Below are positions 5,630 through 57,133 of a DNA stretch of 64,000 nucleotides, one piece after another. Below the pieces are notes generated by a model, which saw only the letters and a program-made list of their open reading frames with translations, did not search any database and was not told the DNA's origin. The position numbers and the translations under genes are program-made. How positions within the stretch are numbered: the first letter of the stretch is position 1; each line of letters begins with the position of its first letter. The DNA comes from Massilia litorea (GTDB lineage Bacteria; Pseudomonadota; Gammaproteobacteria; Burkholderiales; Burkholderiaceae_D): assembly GCF_015101885.1 (NCBI RefSeq), contig NZ_CP062941.1:62001-126000 (forward strand), written 5' to 3'.

Positions 5630-8413
5630 ATGTTGAAAAGAACAATGATGTCGCAAGCCGTTTCCATGGCCCTCGCCGCCGCCTTCGCCCTGCCTGCCTT
5701 TGCGCAGACCTCCGGCACACCGGAAGTACCGGTCGCCCGTGTGGAAGTGACCGGCTCGAGCATCAAGCGCGCCAGCGCAGAAACCGCATCCCCGGTGCAG
5801 GTCGTCACCCGCGATGACCTGGCCAAGTCCGGCAAGGGCACGGTTGCGGAATACCTGCAGACCCTGACCGCTGACGGCGCGGGCTCGCTGCCGACCGGTT
5901 TCGGCAACGGCTTTGCGGCCGGTTCGACCGCGATCTCGCTGCGCGGCCTGGGCGCGACCTCGACCCTGGTGCTGCTCAACGGCCGCCGCATGGCGCCGTT
6001 CGCGCGCGCCGACGACGGCCAGAAAAGCTTCACCGACCTCTCCACCGTACCCATGGAAGCCGTCGAGCGCATCGAGATCCTGAAGGACGGCGCCTCCTCG
6101 ACCTACGGCGCCGACGCCATCGCCGGCGTCGTCAACATCATCCTGCGCAAGGACTTCACCGGCATGGTGCTCAAGGGCGAAGTCGGCCAGTCGCGCTACC
6201 ACGACGGCGAGATGGCCAAGGCCTCGCTGACCTGGGGCATGGGCAAGCTCGACCAGGAAGGCTACAACGTCCTGGTCAATATCGAGGGCTATGCCAACAA
6301 GGAGCTCATGAACAAGGACCGCGCCGACCGCAAGTGGATCGGCGCCGGCGACCTGCGCCGCTGGGGCTATCCGCAGAACACGCAGTTCGCGGGCGGCTTC
6401 ATCACCCCTGGCGCGTCGAGCCCCACCCCGACCGGCGCGCTGCGCGACCCGGTCACCGGCAACTTCGTGTCGCTGCCGGGCTGCGCGGCCCTGTCGACGA
6501 CGACCGCCCAGGATCCGGCCGGCGGCTGCCTCTGGTACCACGACCAGTTCCGTTCGATGCAGCCGAAGATCGACGGCTTCAACCTCTACACCCGCGCCGC
6601 CAAGCGCCTCTCGGGCGGCCACGAACTGTACGCCGAAGCCGGCTATTCGCGCCGCGATACCGAATTCACGCTGATTCCGCCATCGGTGTCGCCGACGGTC
6701 GCATTCCCGCCGAACGCCCAGTTCCCGACCGGCGTCATCAACTACGGCACCGGCGCCAACGCCATCGTGCTGGCGGCGAACCACCCGCAGAACCCGTATG
6801 GCGTGCCGGTACGCCTGCGCTACTCGGCCTTCGACGTCGGCCCGTCGACCCGTTCGGCCGACAACGCCTTCATGCGCGCCGTCATCGGCGTCAAGGGCGA
6901 AGTGGCGGGCTGGGACTACGACACCGCCTATGTCCACTCGCGCTCGGAGCTCGACCTCAACTACAGCAACATGCTGAACATGCCGGCGCTGGCCGCCGCG
7001 CTCGGCAACCCGGCAAGCAACCTGTTCCCTTACTACATCGGCGCCCAGGCCGGCCGCAACCCGGCCTCGCTGTACCAGGCGATCGCGCGCAATGCGACCT
7101 CGCACTCGACCACGCGCCTCGACATCCTCGACTTCAAGGCTTCGCGCGAACTGATGCAGCTGCCGGGTGGCGCCATGGGCCTGGCTTTCGGCGCCGAATA
7201 CCGCCGCGAGAAGCTCGACAACCCTTCCCTGTCGGGCACCGAAAACGGTTCGATCAACGCCTCCTACGTGGCCGCGCGCGGCGACCAGGACATCAAGGCG
7301 GTCTTCGTCGAGGTGGTGGCGCCGGTCATCAAGGGCGTCGAAGTGAACGGCGCGGTGCGCTATGACCGCTACGAGAACTTCTCGTCGACCACGCCGAAAG
7401 TCGGCGTGAAGTGGACCCCGATCCAGACCTTCGCCCTGCGCGGCACCTATTCGGAAGGCTTCCGCGCGCCGGGACCTGCGGAATCGGGCGTCGAAAGCCA
7501 GAGCACCGGCACCGCCACTGCACGCGATCCGATCCGTTGCCCGGGCGGCGTCCCGGCCGCCGGCGGCGCGACCCTGGCCGATTGCTCGGTTGCAGTCGGC
7601 GCGGTCAAGATCGGCAACCCGAACCTGAAGCCGGAAACCTCGAAAGGCGTGACCCTGGGCATGGTCTGGGATCCGCTGGCCAACACCAGCTTCGCGCTCG
7701 ACGCCTGGAAGATCAAGCGCAGCGACGAAATCAACCCGCTGCCGTACAACGAAGCAGCCGCCCTGCCGGACGCGATCCGCAGCGACAACAACCTGGTGGT
7801 GAACGGCGTCGTGCAGCCGAACACCGGCAGCCTGCTGCTCTCGCGCGCTCCTTACCGCAATTCGAGCTTCACCGAAGTCAAGGGTGTCGACCTGGACCTC
7901 AAGCAGCGCTTCCGCATGGGCGATTACGGCCGTGCCACGCTTGGCCTGACCTGGACCCACATCGCTTCGTGGGAACGCGCCGAGTCGGCTACCAAGCATT
8001 ACCAGTACGCCGGTACCCACGGCAACTGCGACACCTCGAACTGCGCGGGTACGCCGAAGAACAAGGTCAGCATGGTTGCCTCCTGGGACCGTGACGCGCT
8101 CAACCTGACGGCAACGGCCAACTACCGCAGCAGCATGCAGAACGTGGCCTTCGCGGGCGACCTGTGCGCTTCGAAGTTTGCCAACGGCAGCGATGCGCCG
8201 TATGGCTGCAAACTGGCCTCGTTCACCACGCTCGACCTGTCGGCGCGCTATAACCTGAACCGCAACCTGCAGCTGTTCGCGTCGATCAACAACGTGCTCG
8301 ACAAGGTGGCACCGCTCGATCCGCTGACCTACGGCGGCCTGAGCTACAACCCGATGGACGCCAGCGGCGCCATCGGCCGCTACTTCAAGCTGGGCGCGCG
8401 TTATCAGTTCTAA
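5630..8413 (+). CDS. TonB-dependent outer-membrane receptor (TBDR-1)
   Basis: This 927-residue receptor imports an unknown ligand across the outer membrane using TonB energy. It has a signal peptide of about 25 residues ending in AFAQ, followed by the TonB-box-like segment RVEVTGSSIKR. The plug domain spans about residues 45-170 and includes the conserved blocks ISLRGLG, LVLLNGRR, ILKDGASSTYG and DAIAGVVNIIL. The rest is a 22-stranded barrel ending in Phe (ARYQF), the BAM recognition end. Barrel loops carry a Cys pair in GNCDTSNCAGTP that is also found in TBDR-2. A ribosome site GGAG precedes the ATG at 5630. The gene lies next to peptide-importer and glucokinase genes, which hints at peptide or carbohydrate scavenging but does not define the substrate. 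Confidence 0.93.
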   Translation: MLKRTMMSQAVSMALAAAFALPAFAQTSGTPEVPVARVEVTGSSIKRASAETASPVQVVTRDDLAKSGKGTVAEYLQTLTADGAGSLPTGFGNGFAAGSTAISLRGLGATSTLVLLNGRRMAPFARADDGQKSFTDLSTVPMEAVERIEILKDGASSTYGADAIAGVVNIILRKDFTGMVLKGEVGQSRYHDGEMAKASLTWGMGKLDQEGYNVLVNIEGYANKELMNKDRADRKWIGAGDLRRWGYPQNTQFAGGFITPGASSPTPTGALRDPVTGNFVSLPGCAALSTTTAQDPAGGCLWYHDQFRSMQPKIDGFNLYTRAAKRLSGGHELYAEAGYSRRDTEFTLIPPSVSPTVAFPPNAQFPTGVINYGTGANAIVLAANHPQNPYGVPVRLRYSAFDVGPSTRSADNAFMRAVIGVKGEVAGWDYDTAYVHSRSELDLNYSNMLNMPALAAALGNPASNLFPYYIGAQAGRNPASLYQAIARNATSHSTTRLDILDFKASRELMQLPGGAMGLAFGAEYRREKLDNPSLSGTENGSINASYVAARGDQDIKAVFVEVVAPVIKGVEVNGAVRYDRYENFSSTTPKVGVKWTPIQTFALRGTYSEGFRAPGPAESGVESQSTGTATARDPIRCPGGVPAAGGATLADCSVAVGAVKIGNPNLKPETSKGVTLGMVWDPLANTSFALDAWKIKRSDEINPLPYNEAAALPDAIRSDNNLVVNGVVQPNTGSLLLSRAPYRNSSFTEVKGVDLDLKQRFRMGDYGRATLGLTWTHIASWERAESATKHYQYAGTHGNCDTSNCAGTPKNKVSMVASWDRDALNLTATANYRSSMQNVAFAGDLCASKFANGSDAPYGCKLASFTTLDLSARYNLNRNLQLFASINNVLDKVAPLDPLTYGGLSYNPMDASGAIGRYFKLGARYQF

Positions 8414-8525
8414 ATGGTAGGGTGGGCGGCTTTGCCGCCCACGCGGCGATCGATAACGGCTCCGCTATCGCGCCGGACGATCTCGCTGCCAACCATCACC
8501 GCGTGGGCGGGAGACCGCCCACCCG
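8414..8525. repeat. paired palindromic repeat (BIME-like), copy A
   Basis: The left half reads GTAGGGTGGGCGG, CTTT, GCCGCCCACGCGG and the right half CCGCGTGGGCGG, GAGA, CCGCCCACCCGAC. Each half is a hairpin and the two halves are inverted copies flanking about 50 bp of unique sequence. It begins within three bases of the TBDR-1 stop codon. Confidence 0.8.
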
Positions 8526-8528
8526 ACG

Positions 8529-8550
8529 CCCGGCCTCGGCCGGGTTTTTT
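8529..8550 (+). terminator. rho-independent terminator after TBDR-1
   Basis: The stem CCCGGCC / GGCCGGG is followed by six T. It sits just after the palindromic repeat and touches the stop codon of the convergent aroG gene. Confidence 0.75.
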
Positions 8551-9608
8551 CATTCCCCGCGCAAACGGCGCTGGCGCACCGACTCCGCCAGGCCCTCCAG
8601 CACGCCCACACTCGTTTCCCAGTCGATGCAGCCGTCGGTGACCGACTGGCCATACGCCAGCTCCTTGCCCGGCACCAGGTCCTGGCGGCCGGCCAGCAGG
8701 TGCGATTCTATCATCACGCCGACGATGCGCTCGTCGCCCGCCGCGATCTGGCGCCCGATGTCGGCGCACACCGGCACCTGGTTCTCCGGCTTCTTCGAGC
8801 TGTTCGCGTGCGAGGCGTCGATCATCAGGCGCGAGGCCAGGCCGAGGGCGGCGATCTGCTTGCAGGCGTCGTCGACGCTGGCGGCGTCGTAGTTCGGCGT
8901 CTTGCCGCCGCGCAGGATGATGTGGCAATCCTCGTTGCCGGCCGTCGAGACGATCGCCGAGTGCCCGCCCTTGGTCACGGAAAGGAAGTGGTGCGGCGTC
9001 GAGGCGGCCCTGATCGCCTCCACGGCGATCTTGATGTTGCCGTCGGTACCGTTCTTGAAACCGACCGGGCAGGACAGCCCGGAAGCGAGCTCGCGGTGCA
9101 CCTGCGACTCGGTAGTTCGCGCGCCGATGGCGCCCCAGCTGATCAGATCGGCGATGTACTGCGGGCTGATCACGTCGAGGAATTCGGTACCGGCAGGCAG
9201 TCCCATCTCGTTGACGTCGCGCAGCAGCTCACGCGCCATGCGCAAGCCGTCATTGATGCGGAAGCTGTTGTCCATGTAGGGGTCGTTGATCATGCCCTTC
9301 CAGCCTACCGTCGTGCGCGGCTTTTCGAAATACACCCGCATCACGATCTCGAGCTCGCCGATAAAGCGGTGGCGCTGTTCGACCAGGCGCCGTGCGTATT
9401 CGAGCGCGGCCTTCGGATCGTGGATCGAGCAGGGTCCGATCACCACCATCAGGCGGTCGTCCTGGCCATGCAGGATGCGGTGCAGCGCCACCCGCGCCGC
9501 GGATGCCGTTTCCTCGGCCATTGGTGTCACCGGAAACTCGCGGATCAGGTGCGAAGGTGGCGTCAGTTCCTTCATTTCGCGGATGCGTAAATCGTCGGTA
9601 CGAGGCAT
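8550..9608 (-). CDS. aroG: 3-deoxy-7-phosphoheptulonate (DAHP) synthase, class I
   Basis: This enzyme condenses phosphoenolpyruvate and erythrose-4-phosphate to DAHP, the first step of the shikimate pathway to Phe, Tyr and Trp. The protein has 352 residues, like E. coli AroG/AroF/AroH. Recognisable blocks are VVIGPCSIHDPKAALEYA, VYFEKPRTTVGWKG, GARTTESQVHRELASGLSCPVGFKNGTDG and LMIDASHANSSK, which together supply substrate and metal-binding residues (the Cys of GPCS, and the His of DASHANS). The ATG at 9608 has a GGAG ribosome site about 7 bases upstream, while the longer open frame upstream runs through the leader region and was rejected. Expression is very likely controlled by the leader peptide and terminator described at 9643-9831. 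Which aromatic amino acid inhibits the enzyme cannot be read directly. Confidence 0.96.
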   Translation of the reverse strand: MPRTDDLRIREMKELTPPSHLIREFPVTPMAEETASAARVALHRILHGQDDRLMVVIGPCSIHDPKAALEYARRLVEQRHRFIGELEIVMRVYFEKPRTTVGWKGMINDPYMDNSFRINDGLRMARELLRDVNEMGLPAGTEFLDVISPQYIADLISWGAIGARTTESQVHRELASGLSCPVGFKNGTDGNIKIAVEAIRAASTPHHFLSVTKGGHSAIVSTAGNEDCHIILRGGKTPNYDAASVDDACKQIAALGLASRLMIDASHANSSKKPENQVPVCADIGRQIAAGDERIVGVMIESHLLAGRQDLVPGKELAYGQSVTDGCIDWETSVGVLEGLAESVRQRRLRGE

Positions 9609-9642
9609 GCGGTACTCCGTTTCGTTGGTCTGGGCTGCAAAT

Positions 9643-9668
9643 AAAAAAACCGCCATCTCTGGCGGTTT
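9643..9668 (-). terminator. attenuator terminator in the aroG leader
   Basis: On the minus strand the hairpin AAACCGCC, AGAGAT, GGCGGTTT is followed by a run of T, all upstream of the aroG start at 9608. A perfect 8-bp stem with a T-run inside a 5' leader is the hallmark of transcription attenuation. A second GGCGGT at 9716-9721, at the end of the leader ORF, can pair with the ACCGCC arm (9661-9666) and prevent the terminator from forming. Confidence 0.85.
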
Positions 9669-9708
9669 CTGGTTGTTCGGTCTGTTCTGCTGTCGCGTGA
9701 ACCTGCCG

Positions 9709-9777
9709 CTATTCCACCGCCTGAGGGCCGGAAAAGCTAAACCAAAAATAGCAGGTAAAGAAGACAGGGTTGCGCAT
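9709..9777 (-). CDS. aromatic-amino-acid leader peptide of aroG (22 codons)
   Basis: This short ORF starts at an ATG at 9777 and ends with TAG at 9709-9711. Its core reads VFFTCYFWFSF: Phe at positions 6, 7, 11, 13 and 15, Tyr at 10 and Trp at 12, so seven of ten consecutive residues are aromatic. Such composition is typical of leader peptides such as those of pheA and the trp operon. Ribosomes slowed at these codons by shortage of charged tRNA would leave the GGCGGT at 9716-9721 free to form the antiterminator, and aroG would be read. A ribosome reaching the TAG would cover that segment and let the terminator form. The Shine-Dalgarno element is weak (GGA six bases before the ATG). The peptide itself is not expected to have any other function. 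Confidence 0.85.
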   Translation of the reverse strand: MRNPVFFTCYFWFSFSGPQAVE

Positions 9778-9801
9778 GAGGGATCCGAAAAGCTTGAAAC
9801 G

Positions 9802-9831
9802 ACTATAACCCTTGGCTGGGAAGCTTGGCAA
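9802..9831 (-). promoter_or_regulatory. sigma-70-type promoter of the aroG leader transcript
   Basis: On the minus strand TTGCCA (9826-9831) and TATAGT (9802-9807) are separated by 18 bases. The expected start of transcription, near 9795, lies about 18 bases before the leader-peptide ATG, a distance usual for attenuated leaders. Confidence 0.6.
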
Positions 9832-10099
9832 GGGTTTTGTCGCAGTGCGTCATTTGCTGCATAAATCATCAGTGATGAGCAAGCGGTTGCGCAGAACGGA
9901 CAGGTTTTTGAACGCTCCAGAAACGTTTGAGAGATATCAGATGGTGTGTTGTCTTCAATGCAAAAGTCGGACCAAGCCCCCGTCCGGCCTGCACACACCT
10001 TTGCTTCGGATCAGTTTCTTTGAATCCAAACCATGAGGCGACGTAAGGTGCGGCTACAGTCAGGACAGGGATTTCCATACGATCCCTTGGAGTCGAGAC
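9832..10099. other. divergent intergenic region between the aroG promoter and TBDR-2
   Basis: No gene is supported in these 268 bases. Together with the aroG promoter it separates two divergent transcripts. The right end holds a GGAG ribosome site for TBDR-2 (about 10088-10092). No clear promoter hexamers for TBDR-2 were identified. Confidence 0.5.
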
Positions 10100-12967
10100 A
10101 TGACCGAGACCTTGTTATCCAGATCCGTGCGCCGCCTGTTCGCAGGTGGCGGCGCCATCGGCCCGATTTTGCTGGTCCAGCTGCTGGTCCAGCCGCAAGC
10201 CCATGCGCAGGAAGCGGCCGAGCGGCCGGTCGCGCGCGTCGTCGTCACCGGCAGTAACATCCGCCGTGCGGAAGCCGAAACCGCTTCGTCGGTGCTGACC
10301 GTCAACCGGGCCGACATCGAGCGCTCCGGCAAAAGCACCGTGTCCGAACTGCTGCAGACCCTGGCGGTGGACAACCAGGGCTCGGTGCCGAGCAGCTTCG
10401 GCAACGGCTTCGCGGCCGGCGCCTCGGGCATTTCGCTGCGCGGCCTCGGCACGGCCTCGACCCTGGTGCTGCTCAACGGCCGGCGCATGGCGCCCTACGG
10501 CCTGGCCGACGACGGCCAGAAGGTATTCTCAGACCTGAACGTGATCCCGACCGACGCCGTCGACCGCATCGAGATCCTGAAGGACGGCGCCTCCGCCATC
10601 TACGGCTCGGACGCGATCGCCGGCGTCGTCAACATCATCCTGCGCCGCGACTTCAAGGGCACCACGGTGCGCGGGTCCCTCGGCATGACCGGGGACTGGG
10701 ACGGCGAGAAGGAGAACTACGCGATTACCCACGGCTTCGGCGACCTCCAGGCCGACCGCTACAACGTGCTGCTCAATTTCGAGTACAAGCGCAACAACAA
10801 CATCTGGCTGCGCGAGCGCGACGACCGCCGCCACATCGGCCGCATCGACCTGCGGCGCTGGGGCTATTCGGCGCAGCAGGCGCTGGGCGGCACCGGCGCC
10901 ATCACGGGACCGAACGCCGCCGGCAGCGCGATCAACGGCAATGTGCGCAATCCGCTCACCAACAACTACTACAACCGTGGCAGCCTCGACCCGGCAGCCG
11001 GATTCACGCGCCCCCAACCGGGCGCCGCCTGCTCGAACTTCACCAATCAACCGCAGGGTGACCCCGGCGGTGGCTGCCTGATCGATTCGACCCTGCTGTA
11101 CAACCAGATCGTGCCGCAGCAGGAAAACTACAGCGTGTTCGGGCGCGGCACCTTCCGCCTGACGCCGGAGATCGAGGGCTATACCGAGCTGAACCTGTAC
11201 AAGAGCCTGACTGCAGCGTCGACCACCCCCTCGACCGTCAGCGCCAACGTCGGTTTCCCGGGCGGACCAGTCAGCAATGCCGATATCGCGCTCGGCGCCG
11301 GCCATCCGGACAACCCATATTTCGGCACCGCCGCCCGCCTGCGCTACCTGGCTGCCGACGTCGGACCGCGGGTCTCGAACATCGACTCCATCTTCGTGCG
11401 CGCGCTCGCCGGCATCAAGGGCAGCTTTGCCGGCTGGGAATACGATACCGCCCTGCTGTTCTCGCGCAACAGGGTCAGCAACGAGCGCTCCGGCTACCTG
11501 CAGCGCGACGTCGCCTATGCGCTGCTCAACCCGACTGCGGCGAATGTCGCCCTGGCGCAAGCCGGCAGCCCGGCCTATGCCGCGCTGCCGGCCGGTACCC
11601 TGTGGCGCATCGGCGAAAACGCGGGGCTGAACACTCCCGAGGTGTACGGCGCGCTGTCGCCAAGGATCGCGAACGACGCCCGCACGAAAATCATCCAGGG
11701 CGACTTCAAGGCCACGCGCGAAGTCGGGCAGTTGGCCGGCGGCGCGATCGGCGTTGCGGCCGGCGCCGAGTGGCGGCGCGAAGAAACCGAGCTGCAGCCG
11801 ACCGCCGGTACCGAACGCGGCAACATAATCGGCCTCGGCTACTCGGCCTACCGCGGCGCGCGCAATGTCTTCGCGCTGTACGGCGAGGCGCTGGCGCCGG
11901 TGCTGCCGGGCCTGGAAGTGACGGGCGCGCTGCGCTGGGACCATTTCACCGACGTCGGCAACTCGTACACGCCGAAGGCCGGCGTCAAGTGGCAGCCGGT
12001 GCCCCAGCTGGCCCTGCGCGGCACGTTTGCGCGCGGCTTCCGAGCCCCGAGCGCGGCCGAAAACGGGGTCGGCGGACTGGCCGCCTTCTCGACCGCGGCC
12101 GATCCCCTGCGCTGCGGCCTCGGCGTGGCGGCGGCCTGCAACCCGGCGTCGATCGCGATCATCACCTCGCCCAATCCGAACCTCTCGCCGGAACGCTCGA
12201 AGAGCTACAACCTCGGCGTCATCTGGGACCCCTTGCCGCGCACCAGCGTCTCGGTCGACTTCTGGAAGATCAAGCGCAAGAACGAGATCAACCAGGAACT
12301 GACCACCGCGGCGATCGCCGCCGGCCACGTTGCGCGCGACCCCAGCACTGCACAACAACCGGGCGACCCGGGGGCGATCACGGCCGTGCTGGCGAACTAC
12401 GTCAACTCGGCCCAGACCGAGGTGCGCGGCGTCGACGTCGACGCCCGCCACACGGTGCGCCTGCCCGGCGACTGGGGCAATATCCTGCTCGACGGTAAAT
12501 GGACGTATATCGACAAATGGCTGCGCACTGAACTCGACGGCAGCTCGCGCGACTTCGCCGGCACCCATGGCAACTGCGACGTCTCGAACTGCGTCGGCAC
12601 GCCGGACCACCGCGTGAACCTGCGCGCCGCCTGGGACCGCGGCGACTGGCGCGTGTCGCTGAACGCCAACTTCCGCGGCACGATCGAGAATACGCAGTTC
12701 AAGAACGATCCGCGCGGCTGCGCCAGCCACTTCGCCAACGGCGAGGATGCGCCGAGCGACTGCAGGCTGGCCTCGTTCACGACCTTCGACCTGGTCGCGC
12801 GCTGGAAACCGCTCCCCGGCCTCGAAGTGTTCGGCAGCATCGAGAACCTGTTCGACAAGATCGCCCCCCTCGATCCGCTGACCTATGGCGCCCAGGCCTA
12901 CAACCCGCTCGACTTCCAGGGCGCGGTGGGGCGTACCTTCACGCTGGGAGCGCGCTACACGTTCTGA
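10100..12967 (+). CDS. TonB-dependent outer-membrane receptor (TBDR-2)
   Basis: This 955-residue receptor is a paralogue of TBDR-1. It has a signal peptide of about 38 residues ending in AHAQ, the segment RVVVTGSNIRR, and a plug with SFGNGFAAGASGISLRGLG, LVLLNGRR and ILKDGASAIYG. The barrel ends in ARYTF. It shares with TBDR-1 the unusual FGNGFAAG plug stretch, the barrel loop GTHGNCD.SNC.GTP with its Cys pair, and the near-terminal LDPLTYG sequence, so the two probably arose by duplication and take related ligands. aroG lies between them on the opposite strand. The start ATG at 10100 has GGAG upstream. Confidence 0.93.
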   Translation: MTETLLSRSVRRLFAGGGAIGPILLVQLLVQPQAHAQEAAERPVARVVVTGSNIRRAEAETASSVLTVNRADIERSGKSTVSELLQTLAVDNQGSVPSSFGNGFAAGASGISLRGLGTASTLVLLNGRRMAPYGLADDGQKVFSDLNVIPTDAVDRIEILKDGASAIYGSDAIAGVVNIILRRDFKGTTVRGSLGMTGDWDGEKENYAITHGFGDLQADRYNVLLNFEYKRNNNIWLRERDDRRHIGRIDLRRWGYSAQQALGGTGAITGPNAAGSAINGNVRNPLTNNYYNRGSLDPAAGFTRPQPGAACSNFTNQPQGDPGGGCLIDSTLLYNQIVPQQENYSVFGRGTFRLTPEIEGYTELNLYKSLTAASTTPSTVSANVGFPGGPVSNADIALGAGHPDNPYFGTAARLRYLAADVGPRVSNIDSIFVRALAGIKGSFAGWEYDTALLFSRNRVSNERSGYLQRDVAYALLNPTAANVALAQAGSPAYAALPAGTLWRIGENAGLNTPEVYGALSPRIANDARTKIIQGDFKATREVGQLAGGAIGVAAGAEWRREETELQPTAGTERGNIIGLGYSAYRGARNVFALYGEALAPVLPGLEVTGALRWDHFTDVGNSYTPKAGVKWQPVPQLALRGTFARGFRAPSAAENGVGGLAAFSTAADPLRCGLGVAAACNPASIAIITSPNPNLSPERSKSYNLGVIWDPLPRTSVSVDFWKIKRKNEINQELTTAAIAAGHVARDPSTAQQPGDPGAITAVLANYVNSAQTEVRGVDVDARHTVRLPGDWGNILLDGKWTYIDKWLRTELDGSSRDFAGTHGNCDVSNCVGTPDHRVNLRAAWDRGDWRVSLNANFRGTIENTQFKNDPRGCASHFANGEDAPSDCRLASFTTFDLVARWKPLPGLEVFGSIENLFDKIAPLDPLTYGAQAYNPLDFQGAVGRTFTLGARYTF

Positions 12968-13312
12968 TCCGAGGAAGTGGAGGCAGGGAGGCAGAGGCAG
13001 ACCCGGCGCCGGCCGGTGCGCACGCACTGGCCGACGCTGGCTTGGGTGGGCTCCTTGCCATGTCGCATGCAAGCGCGGCGCCGGATGTGGCGCACATCCA
13101 ACGGCTTTCCCCGGCAAGCAATGCTTTTGGCGCCAAGAGCACACGAACTCCCACGCCATTTGAGCGCGATCACTCAAATCGACAGGCACGGTGCAAGACT
13201 CAGTCCCAATCACCCCCGCCTGACCACAGTTGTCCATGCTTGCGGTCAATTTACCTACAGATAAGCATTGAGGTGGCGCAATGAGGGGCCGACAATCTTC
13301 CAGGAGCCGGAA
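12968..13312. other. intergenic region between TBDR-2 and TBDR-3
   Basis: These 345 bases contain no supported gene. A GGCGCCGGCC-rich stretch just after the TBDR-2 stop could form structure but lacks a T-run. A small palindrome TTGGCGCCAA is at 13127-13136. A short open frame joined to the TBDR-3 start was not accepted because a better start follows. Confidence 0.5.
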
Positions 13313-15970
13313 ATGAACGAAACCATCTTGTCCCGCCAGCTGCGCCGCCTGTTTGGCAATGCCGTGGCGGGCCTTGGCCTGCTGGCCTGCCTGCCAGCCG
13401 GCGCGCAGGACACAAGCGCCCAGCCGATGCAGCGCGTCGAAGTGACGGGCTCGTCGATCAAGCGGCTGGCGACCGAAAGCTCGTTGCCGATCACGACCAT
13501 CCGCGCCGCCGACTTCGTCAAGCAGGGCCTGACGACGGCCCAGGACGTGCTCAACACGATCCCGATGAACCAGACCTCGACGGTGAGTTCGTCGGCGGTC
13601 GGCGCCGGCACCGGCGGGCGCGCCGTGGCCGACCTGCGCGGCCTCGGCGGCGACAAGACGCTGGTGTTGCTCAATGGCCGGCGCCTGGCGAACCACCCGT
13701 ATTTCGCCGACACCGTCGACCTGAACATCATCCCGCTCTCGGCGCTCGAACGGGTCGAGGTGCTGCGCGACGGCGCCTCCGCGATCTACGGCACCGATGC
13801 GATCGGCGGCGTCATCAACTTCATCACCAAGCGCTCGGTCGAGGGCGGCGCGGTCACGCTCGAAGGCTACGAGCCGCTGCGCCGCGGGGGCGGCGACGAA
13901 CAGCGCGTCAACGCCTCGGGCGGCTGGGGCGACCTCGAGCGCGACGGCTACAGCATGTTCGGCGTGCTCGACTACCACCAGCAGAGCGCGCTGCGCTCCA
14001 CCGACCGCAGCTTCTCGCGCACCGGCGTGCGGCCCGAGCGCGGCATGAACGAAATCAGCCGTACGCCTTTCCCGGCCAATTTCTTTTCAAGCCTCGGCAT
14101 CGCCGGCAACCCGTCTTTCGCCACCGGCTGCCGGCCGCCGGACACCCTGCCCGCCACCGACGACCCGGTCTGCGAATTCGACTACACCCAGTTCGTCGAC
14201 AACGTCCCCAAGACGCGCCAGTACAGCGCGATGGGCAAGTTCAACCGCAAGCTCGGCGCCGACCACATCGGCAGCCTGGAAGTGCTGTGGGGCCGCAGCA
14301 CCAACGAGTCGCGCGTCGCGCCGCCGCCGCTGTCGAACATCGGCGTCACCATGACGGCGGCGAGCCCCTACTATCCCGGCGCCGGCATCACGCCGGCCTT
14401 CCCTGGCCTGACCGGCGAGGACCTCGACATCAGCTGGCGCCCGGTCGAGACCGGCGGACGCCTGAACTACGACAGCAGCAGCACGGTGCGCCTGCTGGCC
14501 AGCCTCGAGGGCACCCTGGCCGGCTGGGATTACAATGCCGGACTATCGCATTCGATGGGCCGGGCGCGCAGCGCCTTCCGCGGCGGCTACGTGATCGACC
14601 AGGCCATCATCAACGGGGTCGGGGCCGGCATCCTGAATCCCTTCGGTCCGCAAAGCCCGGAGGGCGCCGCCTACCTGCAGAACTCGCTGCTGCTGGGTGA
14701 ATACCTGCATGCGCGCATCCTCAGCAGCGCCGTCGACGCACGCGCCAGCCGCGAACTGATGACCCTGCCCGCTGGGCCCCTGGGCTTTGCCGTCGGCGCC
14801 GAATTCCGGCGCGACAGTGCCAAGTATTTCGTCAACCGGCCACTGGCCAGCCAGGCCTCGAGCTCGGGCTACGCCGACGCCCAGGACCAGAGGGGCCAGC
14901 GCCGCATCTACGCCGTCTTCACTGAGCTCAACGTGCCAGTGATCAAGGACCTCGAGCTGAACTTCGCCGGCCGCTACGACCATTACAGCGACGTCGGCGG
15001 CAGCTTCAATCCGAAAGTCTCCGTGCGCTACCAGCCGGTACCCCAGGTGCTGGTGCGCGGCTCGTTCAACAAGGGCTTCCGGGCGCCGACGCTGTTCGAC
15101 CTGTTCGGTCCGCAATCGACCACCAACAGCTCCGACACCTATGACGATCCGCGCCTGTGTCCGGGCGGCGTGGCCATTCCCGGCGCCAACCCGAACATCG
15201 TCTGCGGCCAGCAGCAGAACATACGCGGCGGCGGCAACCCCGACCTGTCTCCGGAACGTTCGCGCACCTTCAGCGCTGGCATCGTGGTCGAGCCGATCCC
15301 CTCGCTGACGCTGTCGGCCGACTACTGGCAAATCAAGCTCAAGGACCAGATCAATTCGCTGGCCGAGCAAACGATCTTCGGCGACCCGGTGAAATACCAG
15401 AACCTGTTCGTCTACGACCCGAGCGGCACCCGGCTCAACTACGTGCTCGACCTCACCGACAACCTCGGCGAAGTGCGTACCCGCGGCCTCGACCTGTCCG
15501 TGCTGTACCGGCTGCCGCGCAACGATTTCGGCAACATCAGCCTTTCGATCGATGGCACCTATGTCAACAAATACGAGTACCAGAACGAGCGCGGCGGCCC
15601 GTTCACGCAGAACGCCGGACGCTATGCCGACGCCAGCCCGGTGTTCCGGTGGCGCCACAACCTGCTGCTGACCTTGGTACGCGGCGACTACAGCTTCAAC
15701 CTGACGAACCGCTACCTGTCGCACTACGAAGACCAGAACACGTCCGTTGCGCCCGAGTTCGCCAACAAGGTCCGGCATTACTCGACCTGGTCGCTGTCGA
15801 CCACCTTCACCGGCAACAAGATGTTCGAACTGACCGCCGGTATCAAGAACCTGTTCGACAAGGAGCCGCCGTTTACGAACCAGGTCACGAACTTCCAGCT
15901 GGGCTACGATCCGCGCTATACGGATCCGATCGGGAGGACGGTGTATGCGCGGTTGACGTACAAGTTCTGA
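13313..15970 (+). CDS. TonB-dependent outer-membrane receptor (TBDR-3)
   Basis: This 885-residue receptor has a signal peptide of about 31 residues ending in GAQ, then MQRVEVTGSSIKRL, and a plug with VADLRGLGGDKTLVLLNGRR, LRDGASAIYGTDAIGGVINFITKR. The barrel ends in LTYKF with the family block FNKGFRAPTLFDLFGP, where receptors rearrange near the end. It resembles TBDR-6 more than its neighbours in the plug. I chose the ATG at 13313 because AGGAG lies six bases upstream and the protein then begins with a proper signal sequence (MNETILSRQLRRLFG). An in-frame ATG 45 bases earlier would add a non-signal-like extension. The ligand is unknown. Confidence 0.92.
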   Translation: MNETILSRQLRRLFGNAVAGLGLLACLPAGAQDTSAQPMQRVEVTGSSIKRLATESSLPITTIRAADFVKQGLTTAQDVLNTIPMNQTSTVSSSAVGAGTGGRAVADLRGLGGDKTLVLLNGRRLANHPYFADTVDLNIIPLSALERVEVLRDGASAIYGTDAIGGVINFITKRSVEGGAVTLEGYEPLRRGGGDEQRVNASGGWGDLERDGYSMFGVLDYHQQSALRSTDRSFSRTGVRPERGMNEISRTPFPANFFSSLGIAGNPSFATGCRPPDTLPATDDPVCEFDYTQFVDNVPKTRQYSAMGKFNRKLGADHIGSLEVLWGRSTNESRVAPPPLSNIGVTMTAASPYYPGAGITPAFPGLTGEDLDISWRPVETGGRLNYDSSSTVRLLASLEGTLAGWDYNAGLSHSMGRARSAFRGGYVIDQAIINGVGAGILNPFGPQSPEGAAYLQNSLLLGEYLHARILSSAVDARASRELMTLPAGPLGFAVGAEFRRDSAKYFVNRPLASQASSSGYADAQDQRGQRRIYAVFTELNVPVIKDLELNFAGRYDHYSDVGGSFNPKVSVRYQPVPQVLVRGSFNKGFRAPTLFDLFGPQSTTNSSDTYDDPRLCPGGVAIPGANPNIVCGQQQNIRGGGNPDLSPERSRTFSAGIVVEPIPSLTLSADYWQIKLKDQINSLAEQTIFGDPVKYQNLFVYDPSGTRLNYVLDLTDNLGEVRTRGLDLSVLYRLPRNDFGNISLSIDGTYVNKYEYQNERGGPFTQNAGRYADASPVFRWRHNLLLTLVRGDYSFNLTNRYLSHYEDQNTSVAPEFANKVRHYSTWSLSTTFTGNKMFELTAGIKNLFDKEPPFTNQVTNFQLGYDPRYTDPIGRTVYARLTYKF

Positions 15971-57099: not shown

Positions 57100-57133
57100 G
57101 AACGCGTGGCCGGGGGAACCCGCCCACCCTACG
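57100..57133. repeat. solitary GTAGGGTGGGC-type palindromic repeat
   Basis: On the minus strand it starts GTAGGGTGGGCGGG and continues to a GGCCACGCGTTCG end, an imperfect hairpin of the same family as the copies near 1570, 8414, 16012 and 17763. It supplies the TAG stop codon of the CocE-type hydrolase at 57129-57131. Confidence 0.7.

Follow-up and report, generated by a model that had tools for sequence, protein, structure and literature searches.

We find that the leader region of aroG in Massilia litorea, in which every feature lies on the minus strand, is very probably a ribosome-mediated transcription attenuator, as judged from its sequence and those of its relatives. The region combines a conserved short open reading frame (ORF) rich in codons for the pathway's products, an intrinsic terminator, a strand that can compete with this terminator as an antiterminator, and a pause hairpin over the control codons. 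On this evidence, we take the element to be a real and widely conserved aroG attenuator of the classical kind, with a mixed aromatic code. A preliminary description had read the region as a leader-peptide attenuator, and the core of that reading holds up through conservation and covariation. It had not included the covarying pause hairpin, the spread over 12 other families, or the leader's use of TTT, a rare Phe codon.

All positions refer to the window, the whole 64,000-nt stretch of DNA that was analyzed. The aroG gene (8550..9608, minus strand) encodes a class I DAHP synthase of 352 amino acids, identified by the NCBIfam model NF006723 AroG (583 bits against a cut-off of 568), with the Shine-Dalgarno (SD) sequence GGAG at 9618-9615. 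It is flanked by three TonB-dependent receptor genes on the plus strand (5630-8413, 10100-12967, and 13268-15970; Pfam PF00593 and PF07715). Between aroG and the convergent receptor gene, inspection by eye shows GC-rich inverted repeats at 8420-8550, together with a hairpin resembling a terminator; when the inverted-repeat pattern from 8420-8525 was searched for in the window with at most two mismatches, it gave a single match, at 57106, which is near chance.

Upstream of aroG, the promoter-like pair, leader ORF, terminator, and complementary GGCGGT and ACCGCC strands that had been described all lie at the positions given for them. The sigma-70-like promoter pair (9802..9831, minus strand) consists of a -35-like TTGCCA (9831-9826) and a -10-like TATAGT (9807-9802) separated by an 18-nt spacer. 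It is the sole promoter-like pair on either strand of 9000-10500, where 0.3 are expected, and transcription probably starts near 9795. Of 94 unique relatives, 73 have TATANT in the 70 nt before the leader ATG (68 of them as TATAGT), and in 50 of these 73 it begins 30-32 nt upstream of the ATG; in a control stretch lying 140-210 nt upstream, it occurs in none of the 94. The leader ATG is preceded by a weak SD-like GGA (9784..9786, minus strand), and an SD-like word is found there in 69 of 94 relatives by a loose test run without a control.

The leader ORF itself (9709..9777, minus strand; ATG 9777-9775, TAG 9711-9709) is conserved and encodes the 22-codon peptide MRNPVFFTCYFWFSFSGPQAVE. As had been described, seven codons within ten are aromatic, namely, five Phe (four of them TTT), one Tyr, and one Trp; these putative control codons, 6 to 15 of the leader (9733..9762, minus strand), are recognized by their conservation in relatives. 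Among the 506 ATG ORFs of 10-40 codons on both strands of the window, only this one reaches seven aromatic codons in ten, and the next best reaches five. The intrinsic terminator (regions 3:4; 9643..9670, minus strand) is formed by AAACCGCC and GGCGGTTT, with its stem at 9670-9645 and a T run to 9643. When folded alone, the leader is only mildly better than shuffled sequences (z = -2.0; 7 of 200 shuffles equally good), and our case rests on comparison with relatives.

For this comparison, we assembled a close set of 110 aroG loci from M. litorea, 29 of the 60 other genomes of the genus (best matches), and 80 named contigs. The contigs were the best 80 of 584 stretches encoding a relative, with titles mostly of Massilia, Janthinobacterium, Duganella, Herbaspirillum, and other Oxalobacteraceae, and the sample is biased to near relatives. 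Our scan required a short ORF with at least 5 aromatic codons in 10, followed by an intrinsic terminator, and a copy was scored where 5 nt or more of the terminator 3' arm recurred near the ORF end. Leader, terminator, and copy were found together at 107 of the 110 loci and in 97 of the 100 unique upstream sequences; the scan missed L082, L103, and L110, of which L103 carries a weaker leader. The same scan gave 0 hits in 801 dinucleotide shuffles, 0 with a copy and 1 with leader and terminator on 267 reverse strands, 0 at 20 second-type DAHP synthase genes, and 0 at 3 further close copies. One paralogue (L002) was left out of all leader counts.

The element extends beyond the close set. Among 150 genomes of the order, 119 had an AroG match, 18 of these with lower-identity types only; four of the 119 (G000, G012, G067, and G200) belong to the same family as M. 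litorea, and all four carry the leader. A further order set of 97 loci comprised one from this family (G160) and 96 from outside it, with one upstream region (L150) shortened by a contig end. In a first scan, leader and terminator were present at 22 of the 97, and the controls gave one hit each, in 97 reverse strands and in 485 shuffles. The terminator rule was revised after 10 ORF-only loci had been seen (loops of up to 20, stems of 6 or more with one mismatch allowed in long ones, 6 or more T within 8, and a distance of up to 90), and the controls were run under the same rule. This gave leader, terminator, and copy at 29 of the 97 loci, in 12 of 32 families; in the other 68 genomes, the scan did not find a leader. 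The copy is present at every leader-plus-terminator locus found in either set, where it also served to choose among candidates within one locus.

A covariance model of the family leaders recovers the aroG leader in the M. litorea genome with an E value of 6.5e-22, and the only other match among the 150 of 1671 first-look candidates that were scored lay on the opposite strand of this terminator (E 0.7). A model termed R1, applied to 250 genomes of the order, matches in 45 of them with E values of at most 0.01. For 29 matched loci of genomes other than M. litorea (L115-L143), the gene is aroG in 28 and the leader lies just upstream in 27, with L131 and L138 as the exceptions. In other orders of the class, for which 84 of 114 genomes had an AroG match, the element was found in 1 of 60 upstream regions from 57 genomes (two of the regions were shortened). 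This one region, L266, is aroG-like and has a similar leader, RFYRWYYF, followed by a terminator.

Which amino acids the leader would sense can be judged from its codons. The preliminary description held that all three aromatic products are sensed at once, and this is supported only in part: Phe and Tyr occur in 97 and 93 of the 97 unique family leaders (whole peptide), and Trp occurs in 38. The corresponding counts for the 29 leaders of other families are 29 for Phe, 27 for Tyr, and 19 for Trp. The 683 aromatic residues of the family leaders comprise 464 Phe, 178 Tyr, and 41 Trp. In an alignment of 46 distinct sequences (two others, L005 and L038, were dropped from 48 for their shifted register), two codons are Phe in all 46 rows and the codon between them is Tyr in 34, Trp in 11, and His in 1; the alignment was picked for Phe at the first codon, which is not counted as evidence. 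The codon preceding these is aromatic in 37 of the 46 rows and His in 9. By its codons, the aroG leader is thus a sensor of aromatic amino acids in which Phe and Tyr predominate; sensing of Trp is plausible for the M. litorea leader and not general among leaders.

These counts bear on a narrower version of the attenuator, which would sense Phe, or Phe and Tyr, with the Trp codon incidental. We give this version a little less than an even chance. It agrees with the preponderance of Phe and with the 59 of 97 family leaders that have no Trp codon. Against it, Trp alternates with Tyr at a single codon, where any aromatic residue seems acceptable, and is present in about two-thirds of the other-family leaders.

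The choice among synonymous Phe codons differs between leader and gene. At the 97 unique family loci, TTT makes up 348 of the 464 Phe codons in the leaders and 87 of the 640 in aroG itself, where TTC accounts for the other 553, and the TTT fraction is higher in the leader than in aroG at 95 of the 97 loci. TTT may be decoded more slowly and so raise the sensitivity of the leader, or it may keep the RNA weakly structured.

The pause hairpin (region 1) has an outer and an inner part, both on the minus strand. The outer stem pairs ACCTGC, within the leader ORF (9751..9756), with GCAGGT directly 3' of the stop codon (9701..9706); the control codons lie inside it, as does an inner hairpin that takes up the GGC of GGCGGT. 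The 5' arm of this inner hairpin, UUCC-G-GCC (9726..9733, within the ORF), is seen in the minimum free energy (MFE) fold and in the alignment, and it varies little and therefore provides little evidence from covariation. The outer stem can be followed across loci as a leader ACC-N-GC (or a near form) facing GC-N'-GGT just 3' of the stop codon. Of the 106 loci considered (L015, L050, L082, and L110 failed the anchor pattern), 78 fit this common register, and the N-N' pair is T-A in 36, G-C in 24, C-G in 11, and unpaired in 7, so that 71 of 78 are paired, with some species counted twice. The other 28 are off this register, many with stems such as GCTTAC/GTAAGC.

In the 46 distinct sequences, this fourth pair of the outer stem is U-A in 20, G-C in 16, C-G in 3, and other in 7, and 91.5% of the cells of the stem are paired. 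In 500 shuffles, the observed values were never reached for the paired fraction, the count of cells changed on both sides, or the covariation score, and sliding the register lowered the scores. By two other measures, the stem is unexceptional: 35 of 500 shuffles reach its number of pairs with both-sided change, and 367 of 500 its number of further pair types. The evidence for the pause stem thus comes mainly from a single pair that covaries strongly, with weaker support in addition. RNAalifold, applied to a mixed alignment of 43 sequences, recovered only the terminator and a partial hairpin, without both-sided changes. A strict terminator pattern excluded 16 of the 110 loci, and removal of similar rows from the remaining 94 left these 43. 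Since the mixed alignment holds two outer-stem registers, the sequences were split by register. A longest-stem search was dropped as a test, having chosen different stems at different loci.

The antiterminator is predicted to form between GGCGGT (region 2; 9716..9721, minus strand), which lies within the last leader codons and matches part of the terminator 3' arm, and ACCGCC (region 3; 9661..9666, minus strand), which can pair with either region 2 or region 4. Within the family, both strands are nearly invariant, and the covariation of this pairing therefore rests on the other families. At the 29 other-family loci, the base N of leader N-GGCG and N' of 5'-arm CGCC-N' form T-A in 14, C-G in 9, and T-G in 1 and are unpaired in 5. 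A Fisher test of T or C versus A or G over the 25 rows holding these bases, with relatedness ignored, gives p 4.6e-5. In addition, two near-identical leaders from a single family (L200 and L204) keep the antiterminator pair while the matching terminator pair is broken, a pattern to be expected if the antiterminator is important by itself. The proposed GGCGGT-ACCGCC pairing is thus borne out by folding and by covariation between families, and aromatic short ORFs are conserved in the relatives together with compensatory changes in the competing stems.

Folding also suggests how the two structures compete. For transcripts that run from 4 nt before GGCGGT to the terminator 5' arm, the antiterminator is the MFE structure in all 8 leaders folded. 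For complete transcripts, the terminator is favored over the antiterminator in all 8 (-27.6 versus -24.6 kcal/mol in M. litorea). Since the terminator is the more stable structure once the transcript is complete, readthrough would depend on timing, and the switch would have to be kinetic.

Two further explanations fare poorly against these results. It is very improbable that the region is a plain constitutive 5' UTR in which the terminator tunes a basal level and the U-rich ORF is there by chance: terminator-like patterns do arise by chance (3 were found, with 1.5 expected), but neither the recurrence of an aromatic leader with a terminator at nearly all unique close loci and in no shuffle, nor the exchange of Tyr and Trp at one position, nor the covariation of two alternative stems fits this view. 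An action of the leader peptide in trans, such as has been reported for the alphaproteobacterial trp leader peptide, with RNA switching secondary, is exceedingly improbable: the peptide is conserved (...YFYFS.SSP.AVE), but indels in L007, L066, L072, and L095 shift the frame, such that GGCGGT stays and the AVE end gives way to RRWSSGGYAQ or similar, and the codon after Thr-ACC has 10 residues (Cys, Gly, Phe, Arg, and six others), with its first base mostly following the outer stem, which is mostly paired. Frame shifts that keep GGCGGT and a variable codon after ACC both favor RNA pairing over a role of the peptide.

The component parts of the attenuator, their conservation, and the covariation of the 1:2 and 2:3 pairings are established at the level of compared sequences; the transcription start, stalling, readthrough, and uncharged aromatic tRNA as the signal are the proposed part of the mechanism. 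RNA polymerase would start near 9795, and a ribosome would begin the leader. With ample charged tRNA-Phe and tRNA-Tyr (here also tRNA-Trp), the ribosome would reach the stop codon and cover GGCGGT, the terminator at 9670-9645 would form, and aroG would remain untranscribed. When an aromatic tRNA is short, the ribosome would stall in codons 6-13, open the pause hairpin, and leave GGCGGT free to pair with ACCGCC before the terminator 3' arm exists, and transcription would continue into aroG. Judging from footprint size, a ribosome stalled at codon 15, the last Phe, would partly cover GGCGGT. Without translation, the pause hairpin would hold GGC, and termination would be the default.

Enterobacterial pheA and trp attenuators consist of a short ORF rich in the regulated amino acid, a pause hairpin, an antiterminator, and a terminator, and a survey of proteobacterial attenuators reportedly appeared in 2004. 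The aroG leader shares this general design. It differs in preceding the first step of the shikimate pathway, in its mixed aromatic codons, in its sequence, and in having the antiterminator core within the last leader codons. Rfam gave no match at or above threshold in 8500-10500 or in eight relatives. Over the aroG leader, Phe_leader (RF01859) scored 24.3 bits against a gathering threshold of 55 (E 0.34) and Trp_leader (RF00513) scored 24.9 bits against 41 (E 0.03); the best Phe_leader score in the eight relatives was 36.6 against 55, in L120.

The nearest known element that we met in the literature appears to be the uORFC-13-1 motif before aroF (Brewer et al. 2021, PMC8632094), which comprises 24 sequences, exclusively of Acholeplasma and environmental origin. 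By its published description, its short ORF holds one or more Phe codons, and like the aroG leader it combines this ORF with an intrinsic terminator ahead of a gene for DAHP synthase (PMC8632094). aroG did not come up in passages of one attenuator survey (PMC2965389); passages of another treat only the attenuators then in Rfam, namely, His, Leu, Thr, and Trp (PMC3766115), and E. coli aroG is listed among computed candidates only (PMC4448311). We found no description of the element in the open-access literature, covered mostly through titles and abstracts; subscription papers lie outside this scope, and priority is uncertain.

In gammaproteobacteria, aroF, aroG, and aroH are described as being under TyrR and TrpR control (PMC5343134), which acts on the same enzymes and end-product signals as the aroG leader but through protein regulators. 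The preliminary description had suggested a different logic in this lineage, and this agrees with the M. litorea genome, in which neither regulator family scores above its cut-off: the TrpR profile (Pfam PF01371) gave one match of 22.1 bits, below the cut-off of 27, and the profile of the TyrR DNA-binding domain (TIGR04381) gave none, while an E. coli control was positive for both. M. litorea also has a second DAHP synthase (C1:2109037-2110041, 51% identity), which is kept in most of 61 genomes of the genus; the scan did not find a leader in its upstream region (L258).

Taken jointly, these observations allow a broader reading, which we put forward tentatively as somewhat less probable than its negation: the leader may be an OR gate, in which a shortage of any of the Phe, Tyr, or Trp tRNAs stalls the ribosome within an interchangeable aromatic block sensitized by TTT, and may be an old, order-wide alternative to TyrR and TrpR in this order. 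The aroG leader could form the basis of a new RNA family and could serve the engineering of aromatic production in these bacteria. The differing Trp content of relatives at one codon offers a natural test of whether several amino acids can be read together by a single attenuator. Since the same arrangement recurs in many relatives, these bacteria probably gauge aromatic amino acids by the speed of the ribosome. If this is true, much of a large order would use ribosome speed, and not repressors of the E. coli type, to control the entry step of aromatic biosynthesis.
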